This document shows, in pieces, positions 1 to 19,174 of a stretch of 64,000 nt of DNA. Numbering within the stretch: the first letter of the stretch is position 1; each line of letters begins with the position of its first letter. The position numbers and the translations under genes were made by a program. This stretch comes from a virus, in IMG/VR virus record IMGVR_UViG_3300018080_000116, positions 1-64,000 of that record; one strand, written 5' to 3'. The notes under the pieces are model-generated. The model did no database searches. It was given only the letters and a program-made list of their open reading frames with translations, and had not been told where the DNA came from.

Positions 1-1
1 A

Positions 2-487: not shown

Positions 488-489
488 AC

Positions 490-525
490 CTCAGGATACA
501 TCCTGAGCGTGATACATCCTGGTCC
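490..525. repeat. GGATnnATCC palindrome plus GATACATCCTGGTCC half-element
   Basis: CTCAGGAT and ATCCTGAG form 8-bp inverted arms around AC at 490-507. A second half-copy, GATACATCCTGGTCCA, follows at 511-526. The same family is iterated at 8337-8454. Confidence 0.7.
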
Positions 526-529
526 ACAA

Positions 530-557
530 CAGCCCGCCCGGCACGCCGGGCGGGCTG
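530..557 (+). terminator. GC-rich hairpin, probable terminator
   Basis: CAGCCCGCCCGGC pairs with the mirrored arm across a very short loop, then TATTTC. It separates the PspA-like gene from pilM. Confidence 0.6.
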
Positions 558-578
558 TATTTCACACCGGAGATTTCA

Positions 579-1787
579 ATGGCAAAGCTACAAACTGCGT
601 GGGGCATCGACATCGGCAACAATTCCCTGAAGGCACTTCGATTAAGGGCCTCTCAGGATGGTGCGGCTGTGGTGCCGGAAGCAATCCATTGCCATGAATA
701 TCCCAGGCCGCTCGATCATCCCGACGCTCACATGCCCACATTGATCGAAGAAGCCGTTGACCAGTTTATCACCAACAGGAACATTGCGGTCGGCGAACCC
801 ATCGCCGTTAATGTGAGTGGTCGCTGTTCTATGGCTCGTTTCATGCGACCACCACCGGTGATGGAAGATAAACTGCCCGACATCGTAAAGTACGAAGCCC
901 GGCAGATGATTCCCTTCGACTTGGAAGATGTCTATTGGGATTGGGTTCGCACATGGGGCTTCTCGGAACAAGGCATGGCCATTGATGGCGAATTCATGCT
1001 TCAAGCTGTGAAGCGTCCTATCGTGGATGAACTGGTCCAGCCATTCAAGGATCGCAAAGTTCGTGTGCGCATCATGCAATCTGATCCAATCGCTCTCATG
1101 AACGCCCTCTACTTCGACCGGTTGCAAGATGATCTCGCCAACTACGATCCCGATGACGATGTTGAAGATGAGCCCTACTACGCTGTGTTGAGCATCGGCG
1201 GTGCCAGCACGGAATTGCTGTTGACGAATGGGTTCAAGATCTGGCATCGGAACATCCCGCTCGGTGGCAGCCATTTCACTCGCCAGATCGGCCAGGAATT
1301 GAAGCTGACGTTCGCCAAGGCCGAGTACCTGAAGATCAATGCCAGGACGGCCAGCGACCCGATGCCCATTTTCAAGGCCGTGAAATCAGTTTTCGAGGAT
1401 CTGGCTGTAGAAACCAAGAGGAGTCTCAGCTATTTTGCATCAATTGAGAAAAAAGCACAGATTAAAATGGTGCTGTTGACTGGCGGTGGCACTCTCCTGC
1501 CCGGCCTGAGTAACTTTCTTCAGACGCAATTAACGGACGTTGAAAGTGTGGAGCCTTGGGCGAGCTACTCGAAGATGCAAGATACCAACAAAATCATGAC
1601 CGAAGAGCACGGTTGGTCAGGCCCCCTCTTCCGAGTGGCCTATGGCCTGGGGTTGCAAGCCCTTGGGATTTCAAGGTTTAAGACAAATATGGTTGGGAAA
1701 AAGGCGTCGGCAGTATTTTCATTCAGCAGCCTATTTTCCTCCTTGAAGAGGTGGATTCCCAGAGTTAGAATTGATTGGGAACGTTGA
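579..1787 (+). CDS. pilM: PilM-like actin-fold ATPase (type IV pilus assembly)
   Basis: A 402-residue actin-superfamily protein of the PilM class, which sits on the inner membrane platform of type IV pili or type II secretion systems and binds ATP. The phosphate-1 loop GIDIGNNSLKAL is at residues 9-20. A second phosphate motif LSIGGASTELLL is near 205, with Ser where Asp is common. The adenosine motif LLTGGGTLLPGL is near 300. The family segment YEARQMIPFDLEDVYWDW is clear. No pilN, pilO or pilQ gene adjoins it, so this may be a stand-alone actin-like protein or part of a cut-off locus. It ends in a basic, aromatic tail after residue 370. A bidirectional terminator follows. Confidence 0.8.
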   Translation: MAKLQTAWGIDIGNNSLKALRLRASQDGAAVVPEAIHCHEYPRPLDHPDAHMPTLIEEAVDQFITNRNIAVGEPIAVNVSGRCSMARFMRPPPVMEDKLPDIVKYEARQMIPFDLEDVYWDWVRTWGFSEQGMAIDGEFMLQAVKRPIVDELVQPFKDRKVRVRIMQSDPIALMNALYFDRLQDDLANYDPDDDVEDEPYYAVLSIGGASTELLLTNGFKIWHRNIPLGGSHFTRQIGQELKLTFAKAEYLKINARTASDPMPIFKAVKSVFEDLAVETKRSLSYFASIEKKAQIKMVLLTGGGTLLPGLSNFLQTQLTDVESVEPWASYSKMQDTNKIMTEEHGWSGPLFRVAYGLGLQALGISRFKTNMVGKKASAVFSFSSLFSSLKRWIPRVRIDWER

Positions 1788-1807
1788 AGCGTTCGTCCCT
1801 CTGCCTT

Positions 1808-1843
1808 AACCCGCTTCGGGGTTTATCCCCCGTGGCGGGTTTT
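1808..1843. terminator. Bidirectional terminator between convergent genes
   Basis: AACCCGC (1808-1814) pairs with GCGGGTT (1835-1841), with a nested CGGGG/CCCCG, then TTTTCT. It lies between pilM (+) and the minus-strand radical SAM gene. Confidence 0.75.
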
Positions 1844-2794
1844 CTATTGAACATTCCCCAGGTTTGTGTCTTTTTGGAAGATTGGGTCGGTTAATAATGC
1901 CACGAGTTGTTCGTGTTCGGGGTGATCTTTATCCACAACGTCCAGTGAACGATATTGCTCTGGCGTGAATGTTCCCCAGTTCATCAGCCGGTCGAACTGC
2001 GCTCGTGCTCCATATCGATGGCTCATCTCCACAAACTGTTTCATCTCTCGCCAGTTGTTTTGTTGTACGACCATGACGAAACACAGGTATTCTATTTTCT
2101 TTTGTGCCAACAAGTCGTATGCGAATTGAAGGTTCTCGTGCAACAGTTCCCAATCACCCCCACGATTTTTAGCGTAAGTCTCAGGCGTGGCGGCATCGAT
2201 GGAGATCTGAATCTCTGTAACCTTGTTCTTGACCTTGTGCCAATGCTTCTTGAGCAGCAAGCCATTGGTTGCCAATTTTATTTTCACATCTTTGGTGCTC
2301 AAAAATTCTATCACATCCATATAGGCAATGAATGGTTCGCCAGATCCGCAGACACTCACTACTTCCAGTTTGTCGGCGATCTGTGTTAAGATCTCTTTTT
2401 CACGAACGCATTCTCTTCTTTTATCTTTGGTGATCCTTTCAACCCTACATGCTGGACAATGAAGGTTACATGCACGGTTGGTGTCGAGATGCATGTGTTG
2501 AGGGCCCGACATTGTTAGGTAGAACGGGTCCACGATTTCATCTTTCCTGAGCATCCATGTTGTCTTGGGGAGTTGGCATAGCCGTGGGCAAGTGTCTTTG
2601 CAGAACTTGTAGGAACCATTTAGAATGGATTGACGGATTTCGTGCGCTACGGGCCCGTTCCAGATTTCCTCAATGTCGTCATCAATGGTGCCAATAGGTT
2701 TGGAGAGCCATTGGCAGTTAAACACCTTGTCTCCGATTATCACAATGTAAATGAAAGGGCTGGGGCAAAGAAATTGTGATTTGTCTACAGACAT
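1844..2794 (-). CDS. Radical SAM protein with N-terminal SPASM-like cysteines
   Basis: A 316-residue radical SAM enzyme. The [4Fe-4S]/SAM motif CNLHCPAC has cysteines at 109, 113 and 116. The GGE-equivalent is GSGEP, and ATNG plus SIDAA match the TIM-barrel strands. The auxiliary-cluster (SPASM-type) segment is N-terminal instead of C-terminal: C10, C27, IGTIDDDIEEIW, then C65, C69 and C73. It is the last gene of a four-gene minus-strand operon and overlaps the deacetylase by 10 bases. The substrate is unknown; the neighbours suggest modification of a surface glycan or a peptide. Confidence 0.85.
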   Translation of the reverse strand: MSVDKSQFLCPSPFIYIVIIGDKVFNCQWLSKPIGTIDDDIEEIWNGPVAHEIRQSILNGSYKFCKDTCPRLCQLPKTTWMLRKDEIVDPFYLTMSGPQHMHLDTNRACNLHCPACRVERITKDKRRECVREKEILTQIADKLEVVSVCGSGEPFIAYMDVIEFLSTKDVKIKLATNGLLLKKHWHKVKNKVTEIQISIDAATPETYAKNRGGDWELLHENLQFAYDLLAQKKIEYLCFVMVVQQNNWREMKQFVEMSHRYGARAQFDRLMNWGTFTPEQYRSLDVVDKDHPEHEQLVALLTDPIFQKDTNLGNVQ

Positions 2795-3399
2795 AGTACA
2801 TCCGCATGGGTGAGGAACAGAGCGTCGGCCATGCTTAACTCCAACAGCAATTCATACATGTATTCCCAGTTGGCCTTTTTATCATAGGGTTTTATACCGG
2901 CCATTTCATAGCTGTGTCCCCATATGGAAAATAATTGCGCTGTTCGGCTGCGATTGAATTCCCTTAGGGCCTTTAAGGCGTGGCTGTAATGACACGTCGG
3001 TTGCCAAGCGAACCTGTCTTTGGGCATATCAAAGTTCGTTGTGTTCCAAGCAACAGTACGTGCATAACGCATTCCAGACTCTTGCGCCATGTCAGCAGCC
3101 TCTTCGCTGTACTCTCCGAACGGATAGGCAAACCCCACAACGTCCTGGCCGCTCATTTGTTCCAGGCTGAATTTGTCATCACGCACTTCTTGCAGAGTTA
3201 GATCTGAGATGTGCGGGTGGTTAATTGAGTGCGATCCTATCTCATGGGCGGCATATGGCGTATAGGACGACATGTATTCATTGCCTCGTCTTCCTGAGTT
3301 TAAAAAGAACGTGGCGGGCATTCGATATGTTTTTAGCATGTCGATTAGTTGTGCGTCATGGATTGTGCCGTCGTCAAAACTCAGTGTAATTATCTTCAT
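2785..3399 (-). CDS. Polysaccharide deacetylase (NodB-type)
   Basis: A 204-residue carbohydrate esterase family 4-like enzyme that removes N- or O-acetyl groups from sugars. Motif 1 is SFDDG (Asp9, Asp10), motif 2 is HEIGSHSINHP with the metal-binding histidines, and motif 3 is FAYPFGEY. C-terminal motifs are represented by WQPTCHY and WGHSYEM. It has no signal peptide, so it probably acts in the cytoplasm on a precursor. It overlaps the upstream rhamnosyltransferase-like gene by ATGA and the downstream radical SAM gene by 10 bases, implying translational coupling. Confidence 0.85.
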   Translation of the reverse strand: MKIITLSFDDGTIHDAQLIDMLKTYRMPATFFLNSGRRGNEYMSSYTPYAAHEIGSHSINHPHISDLTLQEVRDDKFSLEQMSGQDVVGFAYPFGEYSEEAADMAQESGMRYARTVAWNTTNFDMPKDRFAWQPTCHYSHALKALREFNRSRTAQLFSIWGHSYEMAGIKPYDKKANWEYMYELLLELSMADALFLTHADVLCL

Positions 3400-4217
3400 A
3401 GGAAATGTTTGCCTCCTTCCTGGAAAGCCTGTTTGTCTATAGGTGGGAGAAAGTGGGTTCTTACCGAATCGAAGTCGATGTCATTTCCGTGAGGCATAGT
3501 GTTCACTAGGTTGTGATCGTGACACACTTTAATCCAAAATGGGCCCTCATCAATCTTGACAACTTTCCCCAGTCGTTCTATTAGATGGTGCTGTTCGCTA
3601 AGCACAGTGGTGGTTTGGTCGGGGTCAACTGGAGTGTGCAAGAAGGAAACGAAACTGTTGGTGAAATCTCGGTCGTGGATTACTCGAACGACATTGGCTT
3701 TGGGGTCTAGGCCCAGTCCCTTGTTGAAGTTTATAACGCACGGCCCCTTCCAACCCTTCCATTTCTCCTGCACGGTTTCGACGAAGTTTTTTCGGATCAT
3801 GTCGTCACTGTCCAGTCGTGTGGTGATAACGCTTGTGCCGGGGTTTTTACCAACATATTGACGCACATAAGCCAGGAAGGGGCACGGGGCGAAATTCTTA
3901 AATCTGAACAACTCTGGGTTGTCAGGAACGTGAAGCCACACCCATGCGGGCGCATCAATGAGTTCGTGCGGCACTGTTACCAGTGATTCTATTTCGTCAA
4001 TGTGTTTTTGGGGCGTATTGGGATCGACGGCTAAGAGCCAGACAAAATTCTTGGAGGTTTGGTTTTGGATGGAGGGTATTGTGTATTTCTTGAAAAACTC
4101 CATTCGAGCTTCCATCCATGTTTCAGGGTCGTTGTACGGCTCCGATAATTGGTAAAGTCGATGTGCCTCACCGTAAATTCCTTGATTGATCCTAGTTAAT
4201 ATGAAGTGTTTTTTCAT
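3396..4217 (-). CDS. Putative rhamnosyltransferase-like glycosyltransferase
   Basis: A 273-residue protein matching the putative rhamnosyl transferase family: N-terminal HFILTRINQG, then WMEARMEFFKKYTIPSIQNQT, FVWLLAVDPNTP and the RLDSDDM metal and nucleotide-sugar motif. It probably transfers a deoxysugar to a glycan acceptor. Start and stop overlap both operon neighbours by four bases. The donor and acceptor cannot be read from the sequence. Confidence 0.75.
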   Translation of the reverse strand: MKKHFILTRINQGIYGEAHRLYQLSEPYNDPETWMEARMEFFKKYTIPSIQNQTSKNFVWLLAVDPNTPQKHIDEIESLVTVPHELIDAPAWVWLHVPDNPELFRFKNFAPCPFLAYVRQYVGKNPGTSVITTRLDSDDMIRKNFVETVQEKWKGWKGPCVINFNKGLGLDPKANVVRVIHDRDFTNSFVSFLHTPVDPDQTTTVLSEQHHLIERLGKVVKIDEGPFWIKVCHDHNLVNTMPHGNDIDFDSVRTHFLPPIDKQAFQEGGKHFL

Positions 4218-5182
4218 GATCCTATTCCGTGCTTCTTAGAAAGCCAGTTGAGAGTTTCATGGTTATTTAAGTGCCTGTCACGCCAAAAATAATACCTTAG
4301 ATCAGGTTCGCCCTGAATCATCCCTATTTCACGCATGTAAATTCGACTGGGGCACACATCAGTGGTGCATGTTTGTGGTGTCTTCTGCCATTGAACGTCA
4401 CCAATGGTTCCCAGGGACTCTCCATACCAGCAGCGTACCACATGGGGTGTGCGGTGGCGGTAAATCCAGCCCATGCGGCACCCTGAATCACACACACGGC
4501 CCTTAAAGGTGGTGGATGGGTCGAACAGGAATGGCCTATCCATCCCATCCAGGATGATTTCTCGCTCCTTGTCGGTGAAAGCAGCGGGGTAACTCTTTCC
4601 CTCATATGGCCCACGATAAGGAAGGATGAGCATTCTGAAGCCCGCCCTGCGAAACTCTTCTTGGCTCTTCTGCAACTGGCCCGATCTGATTCTGCGGGGG
4701 TGCGCAATGTATTTGATCGAAGTGTTGTATCCGTGGTCTCTCGTCCATTGTGCCTTGTGGAAGAACTGTTTCTTTAAGGGTGCCGTCTCTTCTGAGGGGC
4801 TGTGGTAGCTCGCACTGATGAGGACTACGTTTTCTGGTGGGATGTGTTCTAGGTATTTGGCCCAGTCGTGTATGGCGAAGTTGGTGGAGATCCCCAACCA
4901 ATGACCGTGTTCAACAAGCATGTTGGAGATTTCAAGGGTGTCTGGATATAGCATTGGCTCCCCGCCCCCACTCAGGTTTACGAATACACAGTTGGATAAA
5001 CTGTCTACGCTCTTTACGATCTCCTGTGGAGGGGCAATCTTTGTGTTGGGTAGTGGCGGCGGGGCGCTTTTGTTGAAACAATAGAAGCATTTGTAGTTGC
5101 ATATTTCGGTTGGAGAAAGGGTGAATACGTTCGCCATGGCCGTATCGAATCGTTCTTGTAATTTATCGACTAATTTAAGCAT
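4214..5182 (-). CDS. Radical SAM protein with C-terminal SPASM-like domain
   Basis: First gene of the minus-strand operon, 322 residues from the ATG at 5182. AGGATG lies about 9 bases upstream; the frame stays open further, but that would overlap the divergent gene. The radical SAM motif CNYKCFYC is near residue 27, followed by NLSGGGEPMLYPD. Auxiliary cysteines are C-terminal (CDSGC, CWYGESLG, CTTDVC), the normal order and the opposite of the partner gene at 1844-2794. The pair probably installs or tailors a modification on a sugar or peptide. Confidence 0.82.
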   Translation of the reverse strand: MLKLVDKLQERFDTAMANVFTLSPTEICNYKCFYCFNKSAPPPLPNTKIAPPQEIVKSVDSLSNCVFVNLSGGGEPMLYPDTLEISNMLVEHGHWLGISTNFAIHDWAKYLEHIPPENVVLISASYHSPSEETAPLKKQFFHKAQWTRDHGYNTSIKYIAHPRRIRSGQLQKSQEEFRRAGFRMLILPYRGPYEGKSYPAAFTDKEREIILDGMDRPFLFDPSTTFKGRVCDSGCRMGWIYRHRTPHVVRCWYGESLGTIGDVQWQKTPQTCTTDVCPSRIYMREIGMIQGEPDLRYYFWRDRHLNNHETLNWLSKKHGIGS

Positions 5183-5884
5183 ATGCTTCATCCTAAACGT
5201 ATCACTGCTAACATGGCCACATTCCCCCAGAGAAGAAAATATCTGGAGGACGTAGTAAACACTTTGTTGCCTCAGGTGCAAATTCTAAGAATCTACCTTA
5301 ACGGTTATCAAGAAGTGCCCGAGTTTCTTCAACACCCTAAGGTAGAAACGTTTATCGGCGATGATATTGGAGATGCGGGCAAGTTTTTCTGGTTGGGTTG
5401 TGGGCATGAAGTGTACTTCTCTGTGGATGATGATTTTTATTATCCACCCACATATGTTCGAGACCACTTGCAAACACTCCAATTTTATCGCAATAGGGTC
5501 ATTGTGACGCTTCATGGCTGCCTGCTCAAGTTCCCCGTAGAACGATACTATCGTGATCGTGCGGAAATCTATGGGTGGTACGAGTCTGCGCCATCTAAGT
5601 TTGTTCATGTTGGCGGCACAGGGGTGATGGCTTTTGATACAGAAGCTTTCCCCCTTCAATTCATAGATGTGCCCTCAAAAAACATGGCGGATATTTGGGT
5701 GGCGTTGAAAGCACAAAAACTGCAAATGCCGATTCTGGTAAGAGAGCACCAAGCGGACTATTTGACCTTGATTGATGAACCTGCGGGCGAGAGTATTTGG
5801 AACCGGCAGCAAGATGACCCTCGTCCAGCCTATGTAATCAATAGCGTCCCAGAATGGAAGTTGCATGTTGAAGAACACGCCTGA
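5183..5884 (+). CDS. GT-A type glycosyltransferase
   Basis: A 233-residue protein starting ITANMATFPQRRKYL, typical of small GT-A transferases. LRIYLNGYQEVP follows, and a metal-binding SVDDDFYYPPTY motif sits near residue 90. It starts one base from the divergent radical SAM start codon, so the two promoters must overlap in a very short space. The stop lies 17 bases inside the sulfotransferase gene, indicating co-expression. The specific sugar is unknown. Confidence 0.75.
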   Translation: MLHPKRITANMATFPQRRKYLEDVVNTLLPQVQILRIYLNGYQEVPEFLQHPKVETFIGDDIGDAGKFFWLGCGHEVYFSVDDDFYYPPTYVRDHLQTLQFYRNRVIVTLHGCLLKFPVERYYRDRAEIYGWYESAPSKFVHVGGTGVMAFDTEAFPLQFIDVPSKNMADIWVALKAQKLQMPILVREHQADYLTLIDEPAGESIWNRQQDDPRPAYVINSVPEWKLHVEEHA

Positions 5885-6515
5885 GCTAATTAAGGTTTAT
5901 TCGCACCCCAGATCGGGTACACATATGATGATGAATCTTCTGGGTCGCAACTTCTACCCCACCAGGGATCTTTCATGGCTAGAAACGGAGTGGGGACATT
6001 GGTCTGACAGGCACAAGGATAAAATCCGCAACCCCTATGCACGTCTATTTGGTAGCCATGATTTTGTAGATGAGGTTCAATATGCCGGGCCCAAGGTTTA
6101 CGTTTATCGAGATGGTCGTGCCGTTGCTTTGTCTGTTTGGAAGTTCCTGGGCTCCGAGCAGCCCTTTCCTAAGTTCTTGAGGACGAAATTGGATTGGAGT
6201 GGCACGCCGGGTCGGCGTGCCACTCCCACCAAGACGATAGCCGAACATTGGTACGATCATGTTTCGGGTTGGCTTAATAAGATGCCGCCACGAACCGTAT
6301 TTGTGCGATATGAAGATTTGCTTGCCGATCCAGCTACGCAACTACAAAGGGTGTCTTATGAGTTCAATTTACACATTTCCAAGCACGTTGATGTAGATGA
6401 GCGAGTTGGCATTCTTCCTGGGGACGACCCATTCGTTTGGAAAAAACAATTTACTACTGCCGACTTAGACTACTTTCACACAGTTGTTCCCGAAGACAGC
6501 TACTATCTTTTATGA
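5865..6515 (+). CDS. Sulfotransferase
   Basis: A 216-residue PAPS-dependent sulfotransferase. The 5'-phosphosulfate loop SHPRSGTHMMMNLL is at residues 13-26. The 3'-phosphate motif is VYRDGRAVALSVW, and the C-terminal VRYEDLLADP is characteristic. It would transfer sulfate to a hydroxyl or amino group, most likely on the glycan made by the adjacent transferases. It overlaps the upstream transferase by 20 bases. Confidence 0.85.
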   Translation: MLKNTPELIKVYSHPRSGTHMMMNLLGRNFYPTRDLSWLETEWGHWSDRHKDKIRNPYARLFGSHDFVDEVQYAGPKVYVYRDGRAVALSVWKFLGSEQPFPKFLRTKLDWSGTPGRRATPTKTIAEHWYDHVSGWLNKMPPRTVFVRYEDLLADPATQLQRVSYEFNLHISKHVDVDERVGILPGDDPFVWKKQFTTADLDYFHTVVPEDSYYLL

Positions 6516-6560
6516 TGGGGAGGATATATACCTTCAGGACTTATTATGGAGGTGACGAAC

Positions 6561-7136
6561 ATGGCAGACGACTGGTTGAAAGAACTAGAACAACAGCTAG
6601 AGACCGAGTGCGGCACTTTACCGCCGAAGAAGAAAAGGCCCACTCCGGTTAGGCCAAACCTCGTCTTGAACCCACCTCAGAAGCAATCGAGCGGCCCTTG
6701 GCCCGCAGTATTTTTTGTGTTTTTGTTGGGCCTTGTTATTGTGGTTGGTGGCCTTTGGTTGTGGCAAGGTAACGACCTATTTGCCCTCAAGAAACAACCC
6801 GACAAGCAAGAACAGTTCCAACAGCCCGAGAGAGAACCATGGGAAGAGCCGTGGCGCATGATGTCAGCAGATGTTCAAGCTACCAGTGAAGAGGTAGAAG
6901 CACTTAAAGAGGAACATGACAGAACCAGAGAAAGAATGGATTGGATTGGTTCTCGTTTGGCATTGCTCGGAGCCCTTCATAGCAATAACTTCATTGAGGC
7001 GAAAAAGAAGGGACTGACCAACGCCGAGTTTCTTCTGCCTGATAGGCATTGGCAAATTGATCGTTTGCCCGATAATCTGAAGATGACGGATGAAGACAGA
7101 GAACGATTGGGTCGCTTTGTGAAAACAGAAGAGTAG
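6561..7136 (+). CDS. Single-pass membrane protein with coiled coil, unknown
   Basis: 191 residues from the ATG at 6561, which has a strong GGAGGTG ribosome site; an upstream in-frame ATG at 6546 overlaps that site. A cytoplasmic basic/proline N-terminus is followed by one transmembrane helix (about residues 50-70, FFVFLLGLVIVVGGLWLW). A charged, probably coiled-coil external domain rich in Glu and Arg completes it. Not recognised. It follows the sulfotransferase by 45 bases and converges on the amidohydrolase-like gene. Confidence 0.7.
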   Translation: MADDWLKELEQQLETECGTLPPKKKRPTPVRPNLVLNPPQKQSSGPWPAVFFVFLLGLVIVVGGLWLWQGNDLFALKKQPDKQEQFQQPEREPWEEPWRMMSADVQATSEEVEALKEEHDRTRERMDWIGSRLALLGALHSNNFIEAKKKGLTNAEFLLPDRHWQIDRLPDNLKMTDEDRERLGRFVKTEE

Positions 7137-7811
7137 TTAAGGGGCATTGCCCAATGCTATTAAATCCATAATCGGTTTGGATAAGGCGAAAGCAGTAGCC
7201 CTAGCGGTAGATTTCTTGTGTCGCAAAGCACGGACGATCTCAAGTTGCATGCTTTGTACGCTTGGATCGGTGTATGCTGTCCATCTGCGGAAAAGCTGAT
7301 TGAGGTTATTTTTTCCACGGCCAGCATATTTGCTGTCTACTCCTTCATATACCTGCAATCCCGTTTGGAGCATGAAAGCCACCAAAGCATCTCGACGCCA
7401 CTCTTCACAACTGAAGGAGGAAAATTCAGATCCTTTTCCCGCACCGATAATTACGTCAAGATCTGGTATGCTTTGTCGAATGTGATTTCCGACTCCATGG
7501 ATGATGAAGACATAGGAATACAGGGCGCTGCGTCTTATTTGCAGGGTGTATCTTAAAAGTGGATCGAGAAATTCGTCCTTCACTACATCTTCCAAAAGGT
7601 GGGGGACGCTGTTGCAGTTTGCCAGATCGTTGAGCCAATCAACGTATGTTGCTTTTCTCCACCCCCGGTTAATCACGGCATAGCCGTCGATGTAGGTCGC
7701 AAGGGCTTCTGCCACCACAGCCGTATTGGTGTCGTCATGTCCATGAGGGGCGGCAATGATTACGGGAGTTGTGCCTTCAATCGTGCTTACTCGTTCCACC
7801 CAGTTCTCCAA
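7137..7811 (-). CDS. N-formylglutamate amidohydrolase-like hydrolase
   Basis: A 224-residue protein with an N-terminal PVIIAAPHGHDD metal-site motif, a central FIIHGVG and a C-terminal QLEIVRALR, the layout of the N-formylglutamate amidohydrolase superfamily (zinc-dependent amide hydrolysis). The acidic and histidine ligands differ somewhat from the enzyme of the histidine pathway. No hut genes are near, so the substrate is probably different. The start lies inside the 3' end of the upstream HNH gene (35-base overlap). Confidence 0.6.
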   Translation of the reverse strand: MENWVERVSTIEGTTPVIIAAPHGHDDTNTAVVAEALATYIDGYAVINRGWRKATYVDWLNDLANCNSVPHLLEDVVKDEFLDPLLRYTLQIRRSALYSYVFIIHGVGNHIRQSIPDLDVIIGAGKGSEFSSFSCEEWRRDALVAFMLQTGLQVYEGVDSKYAGRGKNNLNQLFRRWTAYTDPSVQSMQLEIVRALRHKKSTARATAFALSKPIMDLIALGNAP

Positions 7812-8328
7812 TCAAGTCTTCTTTTGATAAACCGAGTTCGTCTAACATTGCGTTAGTTATGTCGGCTACGCCTCGTAATTGTTGCTCTTTCGATTTCTTT
7901 CTGAGTCTATACAACAAAATGTTTGATCTTCCCAAGTTGGCTTGATCGCTAATGATGCGTAGGTTGCTTATTGCATAATGCCCTTTGGGATCTACTCGAT
8001 CTACTGATGGTGTGATTCCAGGGTTTTCTTTCAGGAATTTAGTCACACGTGGCAGTGCCCATTCTTTGAATTCTTTTGGAGAAACTTGTATTTCAACATT
8101 GTCATACCAGAAGCTATGTCCAACCCTATGTCGCATGCGGGCCCACATTCGATTTACAATGCCCTTGGGTGTTTTATTGTATCTTTGATTTGCCTCTTTT
8201 TGCGATTGGCTCCTATTGCGCTTCTTCCTACAAGTTTTACAAGTGCCATCCAACCCATCTGGTTGACATCTGTCTTTGTAAAATTCTGATTTTGGTTTGT
8301 CGGTTTTGCATTTGCTGCATGTTTTCAT
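7777..8328 (-). CDS. HNH-type endonuclease with zinc-binding N-terminus
   Basis: 183 residues. The N-terminus CSKCKTDKPKSEFY plus CKTCRKK gives four zinc ligands typical of phage HNH proteins. The core PSVDRVDPKGHY followed by SNLRIISDQAN (about 107-131) matches the degenerate HNH motif in homing-type and phage endonucleases. Selfish or phage-borne HNH genes often sit in accessory regions. It overlaps the amidohydrolase-like gene, and its upstream DNA carries iterated palindromes. Confidence 0.72.
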   Translation of the reverse strand: MKTCSKCKTDKPKSEFYKDRCQPDGLDGTCKTCRKKRNRSQSQKEANQRYNKTPKGIVNRMWARMRHRVGHSFWYDNVEIQVSPKEFKEWALPRVTKFLKENPGITPSVDRVDPKGHYAISNLRIISDQANLGRSNILLYRLRKKSKEQQLRGVADITNAMLDELGLSKEDLIGELGGTSKHD

Positions 8329-8336
8329 TCGGCCTC

Positions 8337-8454
8337 CAGGATGTATCCTGCGGATATATCCTAAAGCAGTAAAATAGGGCCAAAAATTCGCTAGGATCGA
8401 TCCTACGGATGTATCCCAGCGTTATATATCCTAGCTCGATATATCCTGGTCCAA
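8337..8454. repeat. Cluster of GGATnnATCC palindromic elements
   Basis: At least six elements lie in 118 bp: CAGGATGTATCCTG (8337-8350), GGATATATCC (8352-8361), TAGGATCGATCCTA (8392-8405), GGATGTATCC (8407-8416), then half-copies near 8424 and 8439. The last, GATATATCCTGGTCCA, matches the copy at 511-526 except one base. The array overlaps the 3' end of the GT9 gene. Confidence 0.75.
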
Positions 8455-9477
8455 GACAATTGTGCTATTGGGTTTTGTGCCAAGACCGAGCCATTGTTTG
8501 TGTAGGACGATAGGTCCACAGCCATCGAATTCTTCAGGTGTGTAATCGTCACAGGCGTCATTATCCAACCCCAAGGCCCTTTTTGTTTCTTGGACTAGAA
8601 CCTTTTCTAAATTACCGTAGTATCTATATCGGTAGTTGGCCTCGAAATAAGCCTTCATCTTGGGCTTGTTGTTCGATCTCATGTTCTTTTGTGCATTGTT
8701 GGGCAACAGGTGTTTGACGTTCTCGGAAAGATCGAAATAATGAATCGGGTGGTGTCTCAACCACACTCCGAGGGATTTTGTGGTGGTTGCTCCCGCCACG
8801 TGGAGGGGGCCTGAATCTATCCCGATAAAGAGCGCCGACTTCTGAATAAGGGCGGCAATTGTGCTGGCATCACCCGTCCCCGTGTTGCCCCATATCTTTT
8901 CTTTCTTACCAGGGCGAAAGATGGTCTTTGTGTTGGGCAGTGTGCTACGGCCATCCCAGTCCATAACGATGACAACATAACCCGCAGCGATTACGCTGCG
9001 GGTTACTGCTTTGGTTATGTGTTCGGGAATGTTTTTTCTGGAGCTAGATGTGTTGCCCTGATAGTGAATGGACACGAATCCTTTCTTCTGAGGCAGCTTC
9101 TCAAGGTATTCTTGCGCCAGTATGTTGGATTCCCTGGGAATAGGGACGGAGTATGTGTAGAGTTCAGGATCGGGTTCTAATCCAAGCTCTTGGACGAGGG
9201 ACTTGGTGACTTTTGTGGCTGGGCAATCAAAGCGGATTGTGGTATCGGGGTCGTGCCACCAAAGGTTGTACACCTTGTCATACGCTTTGGCATTTACCTT
9301 GTCTCGTTTTGTTCTATATGAGGCATTGCACAAACCATGAAAGCAAGAGTGCTTGCCCACTAGGCTCTCCACATCAACAAGCCAATTTTTTCGCTGTTGT
9401 TGTATGTGCTTGAGAACAATGGTGAGTTGGACGGCATCACCCAGACCGTGCCTGAAACGGATGAGGACTTTTTTCAT
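8431..9477 (-). CDS. Glycosyltransferase family 9-like (heptosyltransferase type)
   Basis: A 348-residue GT-B protein. The N-terminus IRFRHGLGDAVQLT is the family's first motif, and the C-terminal GIDSGPLHVAGA near residue 220 is its signature nucleotide-sugar site. GT9 enzymes add heptose or related sugars to lipopolysaccharide-type cores. It is transcribed toward the HNH gene and its last codons lie inside the palindrome cluster. It is divergent from the epimerase gene with only 20 bases between starts. Confidence 0.82.
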   Translation of the reverse strand: MKKVLIRFRHGLGDAVQLTIVLKHIQQQRKNWLVDVESLVGKHSCFHGLCNASYRTKRDKVNAKAYDKVYNLWWHDPDTTIRFDCPATKVTKSLVQELGLEPDPELYTYSVPIPRESNILAQEYLEKLPQKKGFVSIHYQGNTSSSRKNIPEHITKAVTRSVIAAGYVVIVMDWDGRSTLPNTKTIFRPGKKEKIWGNTGTGDASTIAALIQKSALFIGIDSGPLHVAGATTTKSLGVWLRHHPIHYFDLSENVKHLLPNNAQKNMRSNNKPKMKAYFEANYRYRYYGNLEKVLVQETKRALGLDNDACDDYTPEEFDGCGPIVLHKQWLGLGTKPNSTIVLDQDISS

Positions 9478-9497
9478 GGAGGTATCTATTATAGAGC

Positions 9498-10463
9498 ATG
9501 AAGATCTTAGTAACAGGCGGTGCGGGCTTTATCGGCAGTCACCTCGTCGATTGGCTTATTAACGACGGCCATCAGGTCGTGGTGTGGGACAATCTGAGCA
9601 CCGGGAAGAAAGAGAACGTAAACCCACGAGCAGAATTTCACCAATACGACGTAGCACACCAGCTACAAGTAGATTTGGATTTTGAGGTCATCTTTCACAT
9701 GGCAGCGTTGGCTCGAATCCAGCCCAGTTTCGATCACCCCTTCACCACCCACGATGTCAATGTGACGGGCACTGTTAATATGCTGGAGAAGGCACGGTTG
9801 TGTGGAGCACGCTTCGTGTATCCAGGCTCTAGTTCATTCTATCACAACCCTCACGCAAACCCGTACACCTGCACCAAATGGATCGGTGAAGAATACTGCA
9901 AGATGTACCATGAAGTGTTCGGTGTGCCGGTCGCCATTGCACGGTTCTTTAACGTCTACGGTCCTCGGCAGATTGAAGAGGGTGCCTATGCAACAGTTAT
10001 CGGCATCTTTGAGAAGCAGATGCGGGAGGGCAAACCACTCACGATTACCTGGGCGGGCAAGCAACGCCGGGATTTCACTCACGTCAGTGACATCGTGTCC
10101 GCATTGATCCTAATGGGCCAAAAAGATTTGTGCGGAGAGATTTTCAACCTCGGCACAAATGTTAATTTTTCAATTAACGAAGTCGCTGGGATTTTTAAAC
10201 TAAATGCTGGGATTTTTGAAGAGGCTGGGATTTTTGACGTGTCTCCCCACGACCTATATCTCATGCTCAAGGAGTCGAGTGAAGTTGTATATCTCCCCCG
10301 CCGCCCCGGCGAGGCCATCAACACGCTCGCCGATATAAAATTTACAACGGAAAAACTAGGGTGGAAGCCACGAGTCAGCCTGCGAGATTACATTGCCAGG
10401 GTAGTCCGAGAAATGGAGCCCGACCCGCCGCAGATGGGCCTGTTTTTGAGGTCGAAAACCTGA
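9498..10463 (+). CDS. NAD-dependent sugar epimerase/dehydratase
   Basis: A 321-residue short-chain dehydrogenase of the UDP-glucose 4-epimerase class. TGGAGFIGSHL is the Rossmann loop. The Ser-Tyr-Lys set appears as SSSFY and YTCTK, and C-terminal RRPGEAINTLADI is typical of the family. It supplies a nucleotide sugar for the neighbouring transferases. Odd feature: around residues 230-247 three AGIF units are encoded by a repeated GCTGGGATTTTT, an apparent in-frame repeat insertion between SINEV and EVVYLP. Confidence 0.85.
   Translation: MKILVTGGAGFIGSHLVDWLINDGHQVVVWDNLSTGKKENVNPRAEFHQYDVAHQLQVDLDFEVIFHMAALARIQPSFDHPFTTHDVNVTGTVNMLEKARLCGARFVYPGSSSFYHNPHANPYTCTKWIGEEYCKMYHEVFGVPVAIARFFNVYGPRQIEEGAYATVIGIFEKQMREGKPLTITWAGKQRRDFTHVSDIVSALILMGQKDLCGEIFNLGTNVNFSINEVAGIFKLNAGIFEEAGIFDVSPHDLYLMLKESSEVVYLPRRPGEAINTLADIKFTTEKLGWKPRVSLRDYIARVVREMEPDPPQMGLFLRSKT
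10185..10235 (+). repeat. Triple GCTGGGATTTTT repeat inside epimerase gene
   Basis: Copies at 10185-10196, 10206-10217 and 10224-10235 keep the frame and encode AGIF three times. Confidence 0.85.
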
Positions 10464-10494
10464 GTCCGTATGTATAAGCGCCAGCCCCCGGCGA

Positions 10495-10610
10495 TGCGCA
10501 CTGTATTGCGCTTAGGCGCACTTCGCTGCGCTTCGTGCGCCTATTGCGCAGCGATTGCGCATTTCATTGCGCTTTGTTTGCACAGGGGGACACTTTCTAT
10601 CCCTTTGCGC
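10495..10610. repeat. Phased TGCGC array
   Basis: Nine hexamers with a GCGC core (mostly TTGCGC) lie at 10495, 10506, 10515, 10526, 10535, 10544, 10555, 10567 and 10605. Most are 9-12 bp apart, about one helical turn. AGGCGCAC/GTGCGCCT (10514-10521, 10535-10542) can also form a stem. The open frame through this stretch looks non-coding. Confidence 0.65.
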
Positions 10611-13749: not shown

Positions 13750-14283
13750 ATGAACGAATACTCTCCCCTCGTGTTGTGGGATGCAGCCAAGAACCCGGAC
13801 GCCGACGAGCCCGACCTGCTTGTTTCTGATGAAACTCAAGCGATTACTGTTATGCGAAACAAGCGGCAGGGCGCTTACATTCCCCGCTGGCTTTATGAGG
13901 AACCGGTTTTCTTGCGACTATGGTCGTTACTGCCCTATCGTATGGACCACGAGCCGTTTTGGGACAAGCAGTACGAGCTAATTGCGAAGGCCACCCCCTG
14001 GCCGATTAAGACCGTCAAGTGCTGCGGTCGTAAGCTGCCTCGATACATTCAGGTCGGCTCGAATTTTATGATCTACTGCGAGGTTTGCGGCTGGCATGTT
14101 TCTACTTTCACCGGCAGCAAGGAAGATATTGTCGAGCGGTGGGAGCAAAGCCTTGCACCACAACCCCATTTGGTGGAACGAGACTGGCGATCCGCTATGA
14201 TGCGGTTCCGCAAGATCAGCGAGCAATCGTCCAGTGTCACCGAGGCAGCGATCCGCTCCAATAGTCGGATCACTGTGGGTTAG
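13750..14283 (+). CDS. Hypothetical protein with zinc-ribbon-like cysteines
   Basis: 177 residues. CCGRKLPRYIQVGSNFMIYC then EVCGW suggests a zinc ribbon in the second half. The preceding segment is rich in Trp, Tyr and Pro. It ends the operon before a palindrome and GAACCT promoter 2. Confidence 0.65.
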   Translation: MNEYSPLVLWDAAKNPDADEPDLLVSDETQAITVMRNKRQGAYIPRWLYEEPVFLRLWSLLPYRMDHEPFWDKQYELIAKATPWPIKTVKCCGRKLPRYIQVGSNFMIYCEVCGWHVSTFTGSKEDIVERWEQSLAPQPHLVERDWRSAMMRFRKISEQSSSVTEAAIRSNSRITVG

Positions 14284-14306
14284 CCCCCCCTTTGGAGGGG
14301 GATTGG

Positions 14307-14320
14307 GAATTTTAAAATTC
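14307..14320. promoter_or_regulatory. Perfect 14-bp palindrome upstream of promoter 2
   Basis: GAATTTTAAAATTC lies six bases before the GAACCT box, preceded by a CCCCCC/GGGGG hairpin at 14284-14302. It may be an operator or an AT-rich UP-type element. Confidence 0.5.
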
Positions 14321-14326
14321 TCAACC

Positions 14327-14354
14327 GAACCTTTTGCCTGCTCGTGTGTATAAG
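14327..14354 (+). promoter_or_regulatory. GAACCT-16-TATAAG promoter 2
   Basis: GAACCT 14327-14332, TATAAG 14349-14354. It drives the N-terminal half of the split helicase. Confidence 0.75.
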
Positions 14355-14415
14355 TGTGTGAGCCGGGTGAGACCCGGCAGGCCGGATCAGTTTCTTTCAG
14401 CAGGAAAGCAGGAAA

Positions 14416-15522
14416 ATGGCCAACTACTCCCGAAACCGTGGCCGTCGTCGCTACCCCGACCGTCAGACCGTCACCGTCAAGGTCGGCGACCTCGAAATTC
14501 CCGGCTGCGTGGTTTTCGCCTCGCAGTACCCTGGCTTTGATCCCGTTGCCAAAAAGCGGATCAAGCCCGGCGACATGATCGCCTACAAAAAGCAGACCAA
14601 CCTGACGGCGCAGCAGAAAAAGGCCCTCTGGCCGAACGGCAAGACCTACAACCTGACGGTTCTCTGGCCGCAACAGCAAGTCGCCAACGGCAATGGCGGC
14701 AAGCCCAAATTCCCGCCTTCGGAGTACCAGCAGGCGATCCGCACGACCCTCTTCGAGAGCGAAGACCATATCGTCATGCGTGCCCTCGCTGGCTCTGGCA
14801 AGACCGCTACGCTTGTGTGGCTGGTCTACGAACTGCAAGATGCAGGCCAGTTGGCAGGCAAGCAGGTGCTCTACATGGCCTTCGGCAAGCGAGATCAGAT
14901 GGACCTCGCCGACCGGCTGGCTGGCACCGGTGTCACCGTCAAGACGACGCACAGCTTCGGCTTCGGCATCCTCAAGGGCGTTCTGGGCGACCAGATGAAG
15001 CCCCGCAAGTCCAAGCAGCAGTATGGCGATATGTTCATCCGCCTGTTGTGCGACAAGGCCGACCTGGACTACTCGGCGAAGAACTTCAAGAAAGTTCGCA
15101 AGACCCAAGAGCACACGCTGCGTGGCGGCGTGTGCGAGTTGGTGAGTTACATCAAGAATTGGGCGCACTTCCCCGAACGGACCAAGGATGGGTGGGCGTT
15201 CACCGAGGAACAGAAGGATGCCATCCGCCAGTACATCGGCATGTACGAGATCGAGCGGCCCGAGGAATGGAAGGGCACCACCGAAGAGTGGGAAGACCTG
15301 CTCGTGGAATTCGCCTGCGAGATCACCTGCTTGTCGATCCCGGTTCCCGGTCAGCAATTGGTCGAGATCGCTTTCGACGACATGCTCTACCTGCCGTTGG
15401 CCCTGGGCCTCGAAATGCCCTACTTCGACTTGCTGTTCACCGACGAATCGCAGGACTTCAATGCCTGCCAAGTGCTCCTGTTGGAGCGGCTGCAAGCCGT
15501 GAAGCCTCCGAAGGGAAAATAA
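14416..15522 (+). CDS. UvrD/Rep-type helicase, N-terminal half (split gene)
   Basis: 368 residues with RecA domain 1 of a superfamily 1A helicase. After an extra basic N-terminal domain (1-98) come the Q motif EYQQAI (about 103), Walker A AGSGKT (125-130), motif Ia (VLYMAFGKR), motif Ib (TTHSFGFG) and Walker B DESQD (343-347). The frame then ends at KPPKGK, exactly where motif III should follow. Motifs III-VI are in the next gene, so the two products would have to assemble. Helicases of this class unwind DNA in repair and replication. Leader has AGCAGGAAAGCAGGAAA. Confidence 0.88.
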   Translation: MANYSRNRGRRRYPDRQTVTVKVGDLEIPGCVVFASQYPGFDPVAKKRIKPGDMIAYKKQTNLTAQQKKALWPNGKTYNLTVLWPQQQVANGNGGKPKFPPSEYQQAIRTTLFESEDHIVMRALAGSGKTATLVWLVYELQDAGQLAGKQVLYMAFGKRDQMDLADRLAGTGVTVKTTHSFGFGILKGVLGDQMKPRKSKQQYGDMFIRLLCDKADLDYSAKNFKKVRKTQEHTLRGGVCELVSYIKNWAHFPERTKDGWAFTEEQKDAIRQYIGMYEIERPEEWKGTTEEWEDLLVEFACEITCLSIPVPGQQLVEIAFDDMLYLPLALGLEMPYFDLLFTDESQDFNACQVLLLERLQAVKPPKGK

Positions 15523-15536
15523 ATTTGGAAACAGAT

Positions 15537-15564
15537 GAACCTTTCGCCCCGAGTTGTGTATAAG
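15537..15564 (+). promoter_or_regulatory. GAACCT-16-TATAAG promoter 3, inside the split helicase locus
   Basis: GAACCT 15537-15542, TATAAG 15559-15564, following AAATAAATTT. It gives the C-terminal half its own transcript. Confidence 0.78.
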
Positions 15565-15606
15565 GGGGCGGAAGGTTTTCATCACCCCAAACTCAAGGAA
15601 CTTGAA

Positions 15607-16896
15607 ATGCCTCGTGTCATTTGTGTCGGCGATCCTCAGCAGTCTCTTTACCGCTTTCGTGGTGCCGACTGTCACGCCTTCGAGCGGATCATCGAAATGC
15701 TCGAACGGAATGGTCGCCCCGTCACCGAGCGGCAACTGCCGATCAACTACCGTTGCGACCGGCTTGTCATCCAGCGTGGTCGCAAGTGGGTGCCCGAACT
15801 TCAAGGCAACTCCGATGCCCTGGGCACCGTGGATATTTGCACGTTCGCCGAGGCGCTTCAGCGAGTCAACAACGACGGCGTGGACATCGCTCTGCCGGAT
15901 GGCGTCGAGAGTGCCCGCCGCAGCCTCCCCCTGCCCGGCAAAGACCCGGTGTCTTTCGCCTTCCTCTGCCGCACCAACAAGGAACTGGTTGTCACCGCTT
16001 ACCAACTGACGGCGATGGCCAAGCGGTGCTGCATCCTCGGTCGTGAGTCGTTCGGCGAGCCCTTGAAGCAACTTGTGGCCCAACTGACGCACAACAAGGT
16101 GGACGAGAGGGGCCGGATTATCGAAGATACCGAGCACGAAGACTACACCAACCGGATCAGTGACAAGCGAGACCCGGAAGGCAACATCGTCGAGGAAGGT
16201 CTGTTGACCCGGCTGGCCAACTACCGCCGAGTCCAGTCCGCCAAGCTGGCTGACGAAGGCTACGAGAACAAGCTGGAAGTGCTTGTGCAAAACTGCGAGT
16301 GCCTGGAAGTTGTCGCCACCCACGTGGCCGACGATAAGGTCACCAGCGTTTTGGCCGAACTGAACAAGTTGTTCACCGATGAACCGGCCCCCGGCGTCAT
16401 TGTCCTGTCTACGGTTCACCGTGCGAAGGGCGGCGAGTGGGACGTGGTGTTCATCCTTCGCCCCGACCTTCTGCCCTTCCCCACGGCAAAGCCGAACGCT
16501 GACGGCACCGTGAGCGATGAACAGCAGCAGGAATTCAACGCCTGCTACGTGGCTGCGACCCGTGCCCGTCATCGTTTGTACTACGTCGAGAACTGGCCGT
16601 TCGGCAACATGGCTCAACGGTCGTTGCAGTTCGATGCCGAAGACATCCTTGCCATCACGCAGTATCCGGACGTTGACCCGGAAGAGTACCTCACCGATCC
16701 CGTTGCGACTCAGTACACCGAGGCAAAGCACGCCCCGGCTGAATTGAACGATGCGGCAGTCACCGAGCCGTTGCCCTACGACAAAGAGGAAGAGCCCCAC
16801 GAACGTGGTGGCATCACCAAGCGACAGTTCGGCAAGATGCTGGACGGCATGAAGGGGGAGCACGGCCCGGTTGTCGATGATGGAGAGCCGTTTTAA
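15607..16896 (+). CDS. UvrD/Rep-type helicase, C-terminal half (split gene)
   Basis: 429 residues from the ATG at 15607 (AAGGAAC upstream, about 40 bases after the promoter); an earlier in-frame ATG at 15535 lies before the -10 box. It starts directly with motif III (VGDPQQSLYRFRGAD), then motif IV (LPINYRCD), motif V (STVHRAKGGEWDVV near residue 265) and motif VI (YVAATRARHRLYYV near 313). The acidic tail is of unknown role. With the preceding gene it makes a complete helicase of about 800 residues. Nothing in the gap suggests an intein or a simple frameshift: the gap holds a stop, a spacer and a promoter. Confidence 0.88.
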   Translation: MPRVICVGDPQQSLYRFRGADCHAFERIIEMLERNGRPVTERQLPINYRCDRLVIQRGRKWVPELQGNSDALGTVDICTFAEALQRVNNDGVDIALPDGVESARRSLPLPGKDPVSFAFLCRTNKELVVTAYQLTAMAKRCCILGRESFGEPLKQLVAQLTHNKVDERGRIIEDTEHEDYTNRISDKRDPEGNIVEEGLLTRLANYRRVQSAKLADEGYENKLEVLVQNCECLEVVATHVADDKVTSVLAELNKLFTDEPAPGVIVLSTVHRAKGGEWDVVFILRPDLLPFPTAKPNADGTVSDEQQQEFNACYVAATRARHRLYYVENWPFGNMAQRSLQFDAEDILAITQYPDVDPEEYLTDPVATQYTEAKHAPAELNDAAVTEPLPYDKEEEPHERGGITKRQFGKMLDGMKGEHGPVVDDGEPF

Positions 16897-16898
16897 CC

Positions 16899-16929
16899 GA
16901 ACCATCGACCTTTTGTGTGTGTCTACAAT
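16899..16929 (+). promoter_or_regulatory. Hybrid promoter upstream of parB-like gene
   Basis: CCGAACCA resembles the GAACCT box, but the -10 is TACAAT (16924-16929) as in the sigma-70-like family. Spacing is 19 bp, so strength is uncertain. Confidence 0.45.
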
Positions 16930-16963
16930 CCAACGTACCCGTTTTGACCAAAGGGAGAACCCA

Positions 16964-17875
16964 ATGTCCGACAAGTCCATCCATCGCATCCACCTTCGTG
17001 ACATCACCGTCACCCACAACCCCCGCACACCGGCCCGTGGCCTCGCCCGTGGTCTGGTCGAAGAGGGCATCGAGTGCTCGCCGATTGCTCTTGTGCATGA
17101 TCTGGCTTTGAGCGATAATGCCGCCGAGCGTGCCGAATTCTGCCGCCTCGTCGAAGCCTACGAGAGCGGCCCGAAGGGTTTGGTTGAACTGGCAGCATCC
17201 CGCAGGAAGCAAGAATTGCAGCCGATCAGTCTCCGAAGTTTCCGGTCGCAAGTGGCCGGAACCGATCCGGTCGAGTACGTCCAGCGTTACGGCGTCGTCA
17301 TGGGTGAGCGCCGTTATCTGGCCGCTGCGTACAACTACGCCAAGCACGGCGGTGCCTGCGACATCGGTGCCACGTTCTTGCGAGTCACCACCGATGAAGC
17401 CTACGATCTTGCCGTCGCCGAGAACCTGCAACGGCAGGACATGACCGACGTGGAGATTGGCCACGTGTTCCGAGAATACTACGACGATGGCATGACCATC
17501 CGGCAGGTCGCCGAGCACCTGAACCAGGACTACCAGTTTGTGCGTGGTCGTCTCGGCCTCACCTACCTGGAAGAGAAGGAACAGCAGGCCGTCGAAGACG
17601 GTCGCCTGGGCGTCACCAAGGCCATCGAGAAGGGCTTGAAGGTCAAGAGCGGCAAGTCCAACGGCGACGAAGAGATCGACCCCAAGGCCGACGAGCGGCG
17701 TCGTGTGGCCACGTTGAAGGCCGTCGAGGCGGAATTCGACGTAACACCCCGCAACCGCAAGGGCTACTTGCAGGGTCTCGCCTGGGTCATGGGTATCGAC
17801 TACGATACCGCTCTGGAAGAGAGCGAAGTCCGCATCGCCGAGGCGATGGAGAGAGAAGCCAAGAAAGCGGCCTGA
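16964..17875 (+). CDS. ParB/Spo0J-like DNA-binding protein
   Basis: 303 residues from the ATG at 16964 (AAGGGAG upstream). The ParB N-domain shows QPISLRSF, GERRYLAAAY (114-123) and VAENLQRQDM (151-160). A helix-turn-helix follows (MTIRQVAEHLNQDYQFVRGRLG). The C-terminus lacks an obvious leucine-zipper dimerisation domain. Such proteins bind parS-like sites in partition or act as CTPases or transcription factors. No parA was found nearby, so a regulatory role is possible. A terminator separates it from the sigma-like gene. Confidence 0.82.
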   Translation: MSDKSIHRIHLRDITVTHNPRTPARGLARGLVEEGIECSPIALVHDLALSDNAAERAEFCRLVEAYESGPKGLVELAASRRKQELQPISLRSFRSQVAGTDPVEYVQRYGVVMGERRYLAAAYNYAKHGGACDIGATFLRVTTDEAYDLAVAENLQRQDMTDVEIGHVFREYYDDGMTIRQVAEHLNQDYQFVRGRLGLTYLEEKEQQAVEDGRLGVTKAIEKGLKVKSGKSNGDEEIDPKADERRRVATLKAVEAEFDVTPRNRKGYLQGLAWVMGIDYDTALEESEVRIAEAMEREAKKAA

Positions 17876-17956: not shown

Positions 17957-19174
17957 ATGTCGGTTTACCAGGGACAAGAATACTACACGCTGCCGTACTC
18001 TCCGATGGACCCCGAACGCACCGAGGCAACGTCTTCGATCATGCGTAGGGGCAACGAAGAGATCAAGCGGTTGCACAAAGCGTTGCGCAAGGCCAACAAG
18101 TTGGGGCCGAATCAGTACATTCGTGCTGAATTCCGCCAGGAGTTGTTCGACTGGCTGGCTTCCATGAACGGTCAGGTGTCCAGACGTATAGACCCCAAGG
18201 GCAGGGTGGGCCGTCCGTCGAAAAAGCCGCTTTTGTTTGTGCCGAGTGTGACCAAAAACCCCCGTTGCGGTTTTGTCTTTGACGACGAAGGCAAGCGGAA
18301 GAAAGCGCCGAAGCCGAGGGGTGTCAGAATCTCGAATCGAGCCCTCTCCCGCATTGTTGCCGTCCGCAACATTCAAGATGAAGTGCTCTGTGGTTTCAGT
18401 CGGCTGTTTGAGCGGCTGGCCATTCGGTTCTGGTCAAACCACAAGGAACAGACGCTTGGAGTCCAAGACTATTACGATGAAGCTGTGATGGCAGGCATCA
18501 ACGCCATCTATCATTACACCAGGGAAGACGTGGAGTTTATCACCTACCTGTACCACTGCGTTCGTAGGCGCATGGGCACGGCCACGGTGAAAGACAATCC
18601 GTTGAGTCCCTGGTCGAATGATGCTCGTCGTCTTCATCGGATGTACGAGGATGCCAGGGCATCCATGAACCGGCCCACGACGTTTGCCGAAGTGTGTGAA
18701 TACTGCCAGTTCACCGACGCTGAGGCCCGGTTGGTGGAATTGACCTTGGCCGAAGTGGTTCAGGCGTGGGACTTCGCTGGTGGGGGTGAGAGTCGCCATC
18801 AGGCGGTGGAAGCCTACGAGGAAAATCACGTGCGAACCAACGGTCGTCAAAACAACTGCAATGGCCTGTACCGAAGCGGCCTTCACCTGGGCAACTTCCA
18901 TGATGGCGAGGAAGAGTTGCGGTTGGACATCGACCAAAGGGCGGCTGTAGAGCGTGCTCGTGCGAAGATGACCGAATTCGAGCGTGCTGTACTTGACGCC
19001 TACTTGAACGATGGCGAGTGGGGCTGGCAGTCCCGTGTAGCCGAGCAACATATCAACCCGAAAACCGAATTGCCATATAGCCGCCGAGCACCTGCGGTTT
19101 TGTGGCCCCGGATTGTGCGAACGATCCTGGAAGAGTATCAGGGCGAAGAAATCGACGCCGTGAAAGTTGCGTGA
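17957..19174 (+). CDS. Divergent sigma-70-family RNA polymerase sigma factor
   Basis: 405 residues. Region 2-like: RLFERLAIRFWSNHKEQTLG, then DYYDEAVMAGINAIYHYT and FITYLYHCVRRRM (about 149-206), matching the core-binding helix and the -10-recognition end. Region 3-like: DARRLHRMYEDARASM then RPTTFAEVCEYC (222-250). Region 4-like: AKMTEFERAVLDAYL to RAPAVLWPRIVRTILEEY (336-394). Residues 1-140 are a basic extension of no known type, and 275-325 is an insert. It probably binds host RNA polymerase and redirects it. Ribosome site CAGG, seven genes downstream of the first GAACCT promoter. Family call by motif order, not by strong identity. Confidence 0.72.
   Translation: MSVYQGQEYYTLPYSPMDPERTEATSSIMRRGNEEIKRLHKALRKANKLGPNQYIRAEFRQELFDWLASMNGQVSRRIDPKGRVGRPSKKPLLFVPSVTKNPRCGFVFDDEGKRKKAPKPRGVRISNRALSRIVAVRNIQDEVLCGFSRLFERLAIRFWSNHKEQTLGVQDYYDEAVMAGINAIYHYTREDVEFITYLYHCVRRRMGTATVKDNPLSPWSNDARRLHRMYEDARASMNRPTTFAEVCEYCQFTDAEARLVELTLAEVVQAWDFAGGGESRHQAVEAYEENHVRTNGRQNNCNGLYRSGLHLGNFHDGEEELRLDIDQRAAVERARAKMTEFERAVLDAYLNDGEWGWQSRVAEQHINPKTELPYSRRAPAVLWPRIVRTILEEYQGEEIDAVKVA

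Follow-up and report, generated by a model that had tools for sequence, protein, structure and literature searches.

The DNA analysed here (the window) comprises bases 1-64000 of a 138,192-bp IMG/VR record. The record is that of a contractile-tailed phage or provirus, since genes further along match the baseplate wedge and baseplate-injector families. Two consecutive genes of the window, identified by Pfam, PHROG and motif reading, together carry the motifs of one helicase. The first (14416-15522, + strand, 368 aa, stop TAA at 15520-15522), hereafter the N half, contains the Q motif, Walker A (AGSGKT, 14788-14805, + strand), motif Ia and motif II (DESQD, 15442-15456, + strand). The second, the C half (15607-16896, + strand, 429 aa, beginning MPRVICVGDPQQ), starts from an ATG preceded by a ribosome binding site (RBS). 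It has motif III (GDPQQS, 15628-15645, + strand) right at its N-terminus, followed by motifs IV (NYRC), V (LSTVHRAKGGEWD) and VI (VAATRAR), and ends with a tail of about 100 residues. Walker A and motifs II, III, V and VI, found in order and divided over two ORFs, are those of a UvrD/PcrA-like SF1A helicase. Members of this family are usually, if not by strict definition, single polypeptides, and this one is not. The initial annotation had described a helicase cut between motifs II and III, and the cut is indeed there, with DESQD in the first ORF and GDPQQS to motif VI in the next.

Profile matches run across the break. The first ORF matches UvrD-helicase (PF00580) at 11-236; the second matches it at 241-266 and also matches UvrD_C / UvrD_C_2 (PF13361). 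Positions 148-386 of PHROG_1967 (DNA helicase, 776 long) are covered by the first half and positions 392-668 by the second; as these segments are consecutive, no core part is missing. A search of the whole 138-kb record returned a single UvrD match, interrupted by a single TAA. Both ORFs (14416-15522, and 15535-16896 as listed) lie on the + strand in one common frame, with TAA 15520-15522 between them; at 1.1 and 1.3 kb, they are open without further lesions and their codon use is typical.

Other features of this locus call for comment. The first 95 residues or so of the N half (14416-14700) form an extension that is absent from the compared homologues, and model confidence is low there. On the minus strand, a 1030-aa antisense ORF (13978-17070) runs across both halves and the sequence between them, and misleads gene callers; it was ruled out as a gene, the homology being on the + strand, and is probably a by-product of codon bias. 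PADLOC gave partial matches to GajB of the Gabija system (best 7.5e-20, C half), as expected for any UvrD-like protein.

The sequence between the two halves

The halves are separated by an 87-bp intercistronic module (15520-15606, + strand), hereafter the seam, made up of the TAA, an AT-rich stretch, a promoter and a 5′ leader with an RBS. Its GC content is 45%, versus 60% in the halves, and it has no coding signature: positions 15535-15606 score 0.05 bits per codon, versus 0.60 and 0.55 for the halves, which is less than every 24-codon window in either half. The RBS (AAGGA, 15595-15599, + strand) stands 7 nt before ATG 15607. That a second gene exists, as initially annotated, is upheld, but its listed start at 15535 is not, since it falls inside the promoter module, 2 bp before the -35-like element. 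Because of this position, ATG 15535 would be unusable by a transcript from the seam promoter. ATG 15607 is the better start, and the one expected for a transcript beginning near 15570, an RNA start deduced from the -10-like box.

A simple frameshift or point nonsense mutation is excluded by the common frame of the two ORFs and by the 87-bp non-coding module, which together with the stop codon separates them; on this point we agree with the initial annotation. An intron, a ribozyme or a known RNA element was ruled out by an Rfam search, which gave no match at the gathering threshold within the window and, elsewhere in the region, two chance-level matches (E up to 5). An intein was ruled out for lack of room, and translational bypass was set aside on inspection by eye. 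At 87 bp, the seam is too small for an endonuclease gene, and no endonuclease or intron is present. The RNA structure of the leader is ordinary (z 0.32), and the + strand of the gap showed no hairpin resembling a terminator. A search of the record for a longer copy of the seam that could have acted as donor found none; the promoter core alone recurs.

A recurrent promoter in the seam

The element within the seam (GAACCTTTCGCCCCGAGTTGTGTATAAG, 15537-15564, + strand, followed by a conserved GGGGGCG) has a counterpart about 60 bp before the start of the N half (GAACCTTTTGCCTGCTCGTGTGTATAAG, 14327-14354, + strand). Both belong to a family that recurs along the phage. The + strand of the 138-kb record contains 18 matches to the pattern GAACC-N-GTGTATAAG (GAACCnnT form), the - strand contains none, and a reversed control pattern has no match in the same record. 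A weight matrix trained on these 18 matches scored 23 sites on the + strand, 22 of them strong and one, at 33102, weak; the - strand and three simulated sequences gave no site. The consensus consists of an A-rich stretch, ACCGAACCTTTT (CCGAACCYTTT), a spacer of about 11-12 nt and GTGTATAAGGGGGCGAAC; the element measures 28-29 bp in 17 of the 18 copies. The sites, about 22 in number, extend from 12860 in the window to 82534 in the record (for example 12860, 14327, 35006, 44138, 49808 and 53102, and on from there in locus L089). The strict pattern had no match in other viral contigs (IMG/VR) or in genome contigs.

The other copies are found ahead of genes or in the intervals between them, and an RBS and a start codon usually come next; four that were labelled as lying inside genes owe this to doubtful minus-strand calls of a crude gene caller. 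The distance from the upstream stop to GAACC is 15 bp at the seam, and the stop is at -11, -16, -18, -19 and -21 at other junctions. Since the promoter recurs between genes with a similar stop-to-GAACC distance, the seam, as judged from its sequence, resembles the usual gene boundaries of this phage and is set within a helicase.

The initial annotation had proposed that the gap holds a promoter of its own and that the two subunits are thereby under independent control. The recurrence of the element, its restriction to the + strand and its absence from simulated sequence support the first proposal. The second is not supported, as the N half has a promoter of the same class (14327-14354) and the gap lacks a terminator-like hairpin. 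For the same reasons, both halves should be co-expressed, which is likelier than independent control. At some other sites (34818-35066, and in L089 at record 79505-79643 and near 82500), strong GC-rich hairpins, some with T runs, precede the promoters and form terminator-plus-promoter modules; the helicase seam has no comparable hairpin and T run.

Homologues of the helicase

Both halves are found in one frame in 161 phage, plasmid and viral loci, corresponding to 136 distinct sequences. Among the remaining loci, one (L195) is interrupted by a contig end, one chromosomal relative (L163) has the halves in overlapping frames, and one viral contig (L216, IMGVR_UViG_3300027821_000004) carries a different split at 2913-5528, which falls past the motif IV region, at the 1A/2A boundary, and where about 1 kb of small ORFs separates the two parts. 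The same split was looked for in related elements, and none of the collected loci has it, that of L216 lying elsewhere. Searches of IMG/VR with the N half, the C half, the ParB-like and AAA neighbours and the promoter pattern returned no near relatives, records very near the window's own being possibly omitted; in genome contigs, only distant UvrD-type relatives were found.

The initial annotation had named intact homologues in relatives, together with reads showing a sequencing error, as evidence against a genuine split. Intact homologues do exist (the 136 distinct one-frame sequences), but they are distant, the window protein being about 24-32% identical to its homologues. Owing to this distance, they indicate that the split is derived without showing that it is an error; as far as sequence comparison goes, the split is most simply read as derived, at a date that such distant homologues do not fix.

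The spacing of the two motifs that flank the break is informative. From motif II (DExQD) to motif III (GD..Q), 126 of 128 measured homologues have 19-33 residues. In the window, the spacing is 28 residues when the halves are joined and 57 if the TAA is read through; the figure of about 25 residues initially given for the chain from DESQD to GDPQQS is corrected accordingly. In the two exceptions, L020 and L186, the protein is intact and has an insertion of about 35 residues at the very loop that is broken in the window, making it 55-56 residues long. Because intact proteins carry such insertions there, the II-III loop is a natural insertion site. The L020 and L186 insertions are Cys-rich, possibly zinc-binding, and unrelated to the window linker.

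Conservation of the protein itself gave a mixed picture. It keeps 29 of the 30 columns that are invariant in 35 other homologues, catalytic motifs included; the altered residue is a P to E change at read-through position 523. It is also the most divergent of the 36 aligned sequences, with 87% of the 90%-consensus columns kept (median 96%).

Position of the break in a structure model

An AlphaFold2 model of the read-through product has a confident core on either side of the seam, and a pLDDT of 49 for residues 381-390. It has the SF1A fold, and Foldseek placed PcrA (E 1.8e-21), UvrD1, UvrD and Rep first; as the input to AlphaFold2 was a 36-sequence alignment of intact family members, this fold match is not independent. 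For the same reason, the model bears on the placement of the seam and not on two-chain assembly. In the model, the seam follows the helix after motif II (350-359) and precedes the strand of motif III (400-405); it is inside a RecA-like domain rather than at a domain boundary.

Origin of the two-gene helicase

We consider it probable that this is a genuine gene in pieces, in which an ancestral single-chain SF1A helicase gene was broken by a module of the phage's own and the products assemble into one helicase. The ancestor would have been a phage gene of the UvrD/PcrA-like PHROG_1967 family, split in two by a short intercistronic module from the phage's expression system. This module would have brought the stop codon, the AT-rich upstream stretch, the GAACC/TATAAG promoter, the leader with its RBS and the new ATG. 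Its landing place would have been a loop of the first RecA-like domain, the one joining the motif II helix to the motif III strand; a break there costs nothing that catalysis needs, and relatives tolerate insertions at this point. The 14327 promoter would drive the N half and probably, by read-through, the C half, to which the 15537 promoter would add further transcripts. The two polypeptides, N with Walker A and motif II and C with motifs III-VI, would then fold together into an ATP-driven DNA translocase, probably by co-folding, the P-loop and motif II of the N chain being joined by the motif III strand and 2A domain of the C chain.

The organisation described above points this way, with adjacent ORFs that match consecutive parts of PHROG_1967 and lose nothing between them, and with intact homologues, all of them distant. 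From it we infer insertion of the module and expression of the two halves. If Aeh1 NrdA and gp43A/gp43B are a guide, the two products presumably associate and the pair is presumably active, and two subunits forming one motor, as initially proposed, is the best inference. What speaks against this explanation is that no relative has the split, that this protein diverges more than any other of the 36 aligned, and that the break falls inside a RecA-like domain.

A first alternative is a helicase in decay, in which a recent inactivating insertion would have left the C half expressed accidentally or never, with both halves being lost. The single frames of all other complete homologues but one, a split common to no relative, and the divergence of the protein, with one invariant proline gone, are all in line with such a history. 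Decay is nevertheless unlikely in our view, given two ORFs of 1.1 and 1.3 kb that have no further lesions, keep all catalytic motifs and show typical codon use, and a seam with an apparently working promoter, RBS and ATG, which a random disruption would not supply.

Alternatively, a full-length protein of 826 aa could still be made, either because ribosomes read through TAA 15520 or because they terminate and reinitiate at ATG 15535, with the promoter as an internal extra. The two ORFs do share a frame without further stop, and the loop of the two intact homologues noted above is similarly long (55-56 residues). The linker has no coding signature, however; its sequence is that of the promoter module, no Rfam match was found there, and it is unrelated to the long, Cys-rich loops of L020 and L186. 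TAA is moreover generally a tight stop, and we hold continued full-length synthesis to be quite improbable.

Still less probable is an artefact of assembly or sequencing at the repeated promoter. The locus is known from a single record, and the promoter core is present about 22 times in it, a situation in which short-read assemblies tend to fail. Yet the near-exact stretch common to the seam and other promoter copies is just about 15-21 bp long, and the shared core includes neither the stop that precedes it nor the RBS and ATG that follow, so that an erroneous joining of repeats would still have to involve an N half already truncated and a C half already provided with a start. Least probable of all is that the halves no longer form one motor and that one of them has taken a separate regulatory role, be it the C half or the N half, which carries the extension of about 95 residues. 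This extension, absent in compared homologues, and the C-half tail of about 100 residues would suit such a role, but the motifs of one active site all remain, divided between the halves, and their retention would not be expected under selection on halves that act separately.

A broader version of the gene-in-pieces explanation, which we regard as doubtful, would make the 22 or so promoter modules mobile regulatory cassettes, in which stop, promoter, RBS and start land as a unit in genes and make two co-expressed subunits of each, the helicase being an example caught in this state. If true, it would to our knowledge be the first natural SF1A motor whose single active site is assembled from two chains that are initiated separately, the cut falling between motifs II and III.

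Comparison with known split genes

Genes in pieces are well known in phages (PMC2988022, PMC3653736). The split nrdA of phage Aeh1 gives a fully functional RNR, and the products of the split gene 43A/43B co-purify with polymerase activity in phage 25 (PMC2988022). The present case resembles 43A/43B of Aeromonas phages 44RR and 25, where a one-chain replication enzyme is encoded by two genes, with an untranslated stretch (IC-UTS) between them in 44RR (PMC2988022). It differs in that the enzyme is a helicase, that the stretch is a copy of a phage-wide promoter, and that the cut falls in a RecA-like domain between catalytic motifs. As in Aeh1 nrdA and the split topoisomerase subunit of T4 (genes 39/60), the division is at a functionally critical place; those splits are ascribed to insertion of homing endonucleases (mobE, mobA; PMC2988022), whereas no endonuclease or intron is present here. 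The available text of PMC3653736 also describes split RNR genes in Listeria phages A511/P100 (210 nt gap) and Thermus phage phiYS40 (12 nt), likewise consecutive ORFs with intact relatives; they encode a different enzyme, and that text reports no recurrent promoter in their gap.

The viral contig L216 also has a helicase of this family as two ORFs, from which the present case differs by the cut site and by having no stretch of about 1 kb of small ORFs between. PcrA, UvrD and Rep (PDB 1pjr, 2is6, 1uaa) and PHROG_1967 have the same motifs and fold, but as single chains. Open-access literature, with most subscription journals outside its scope, yielded no report of a split UvrD-type helicase, which is weak evidence of novelty. 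What is new here is the combination of a cut within the ATPase domain and an intervening sequence that is a recurrent promoter of the phage itself. Set beside these systems, the two-gene helicase is credible as an enzyme made in two pieces, a type for which other phage genes already provide examples. It suggests that an intergenic promoter module of a phage can divide a gene without loss, homing endonuclease or intron. If the halves work together, the locus would provide a natural split point inside the ATPase domain of an SF1A helicase, helpful for studying how such motors fold, and a route to conditional (two-part) helicases.

Genes around the helicase

The neighbours of the helicase include ParB-like, sigma-like and AAA genes. 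Immediately downstream of the C half lies a ParB-like gene (16964-17875, + strand), and the second gene downstream (17957-19174, + strand) encodes a Sigma-70/ECF-like protein, whose profile matches are weak (PHROG_351, E 4e-4; TIGR02937, E 2.5e-4, under the curated cut-off of TIGR02937). GAAC-type -35 elements are typical for ECF sigma factors. This sigma-like protein may for that reason be what reads the GAACC promoters, and a phage-coded sigma of this kind is a testable idea. At the start of the window, positions 1-10500 hold bacterial-looking genes (PilM, radical SAM, NAD-dependent epimerase, glycosyltransferase), which are a provirus host flank or acquired genes. Further along the record, the promoter-rich region contains an ArdC-like anti-restriction protein (L089, 10920-11951; record 74920-75951).
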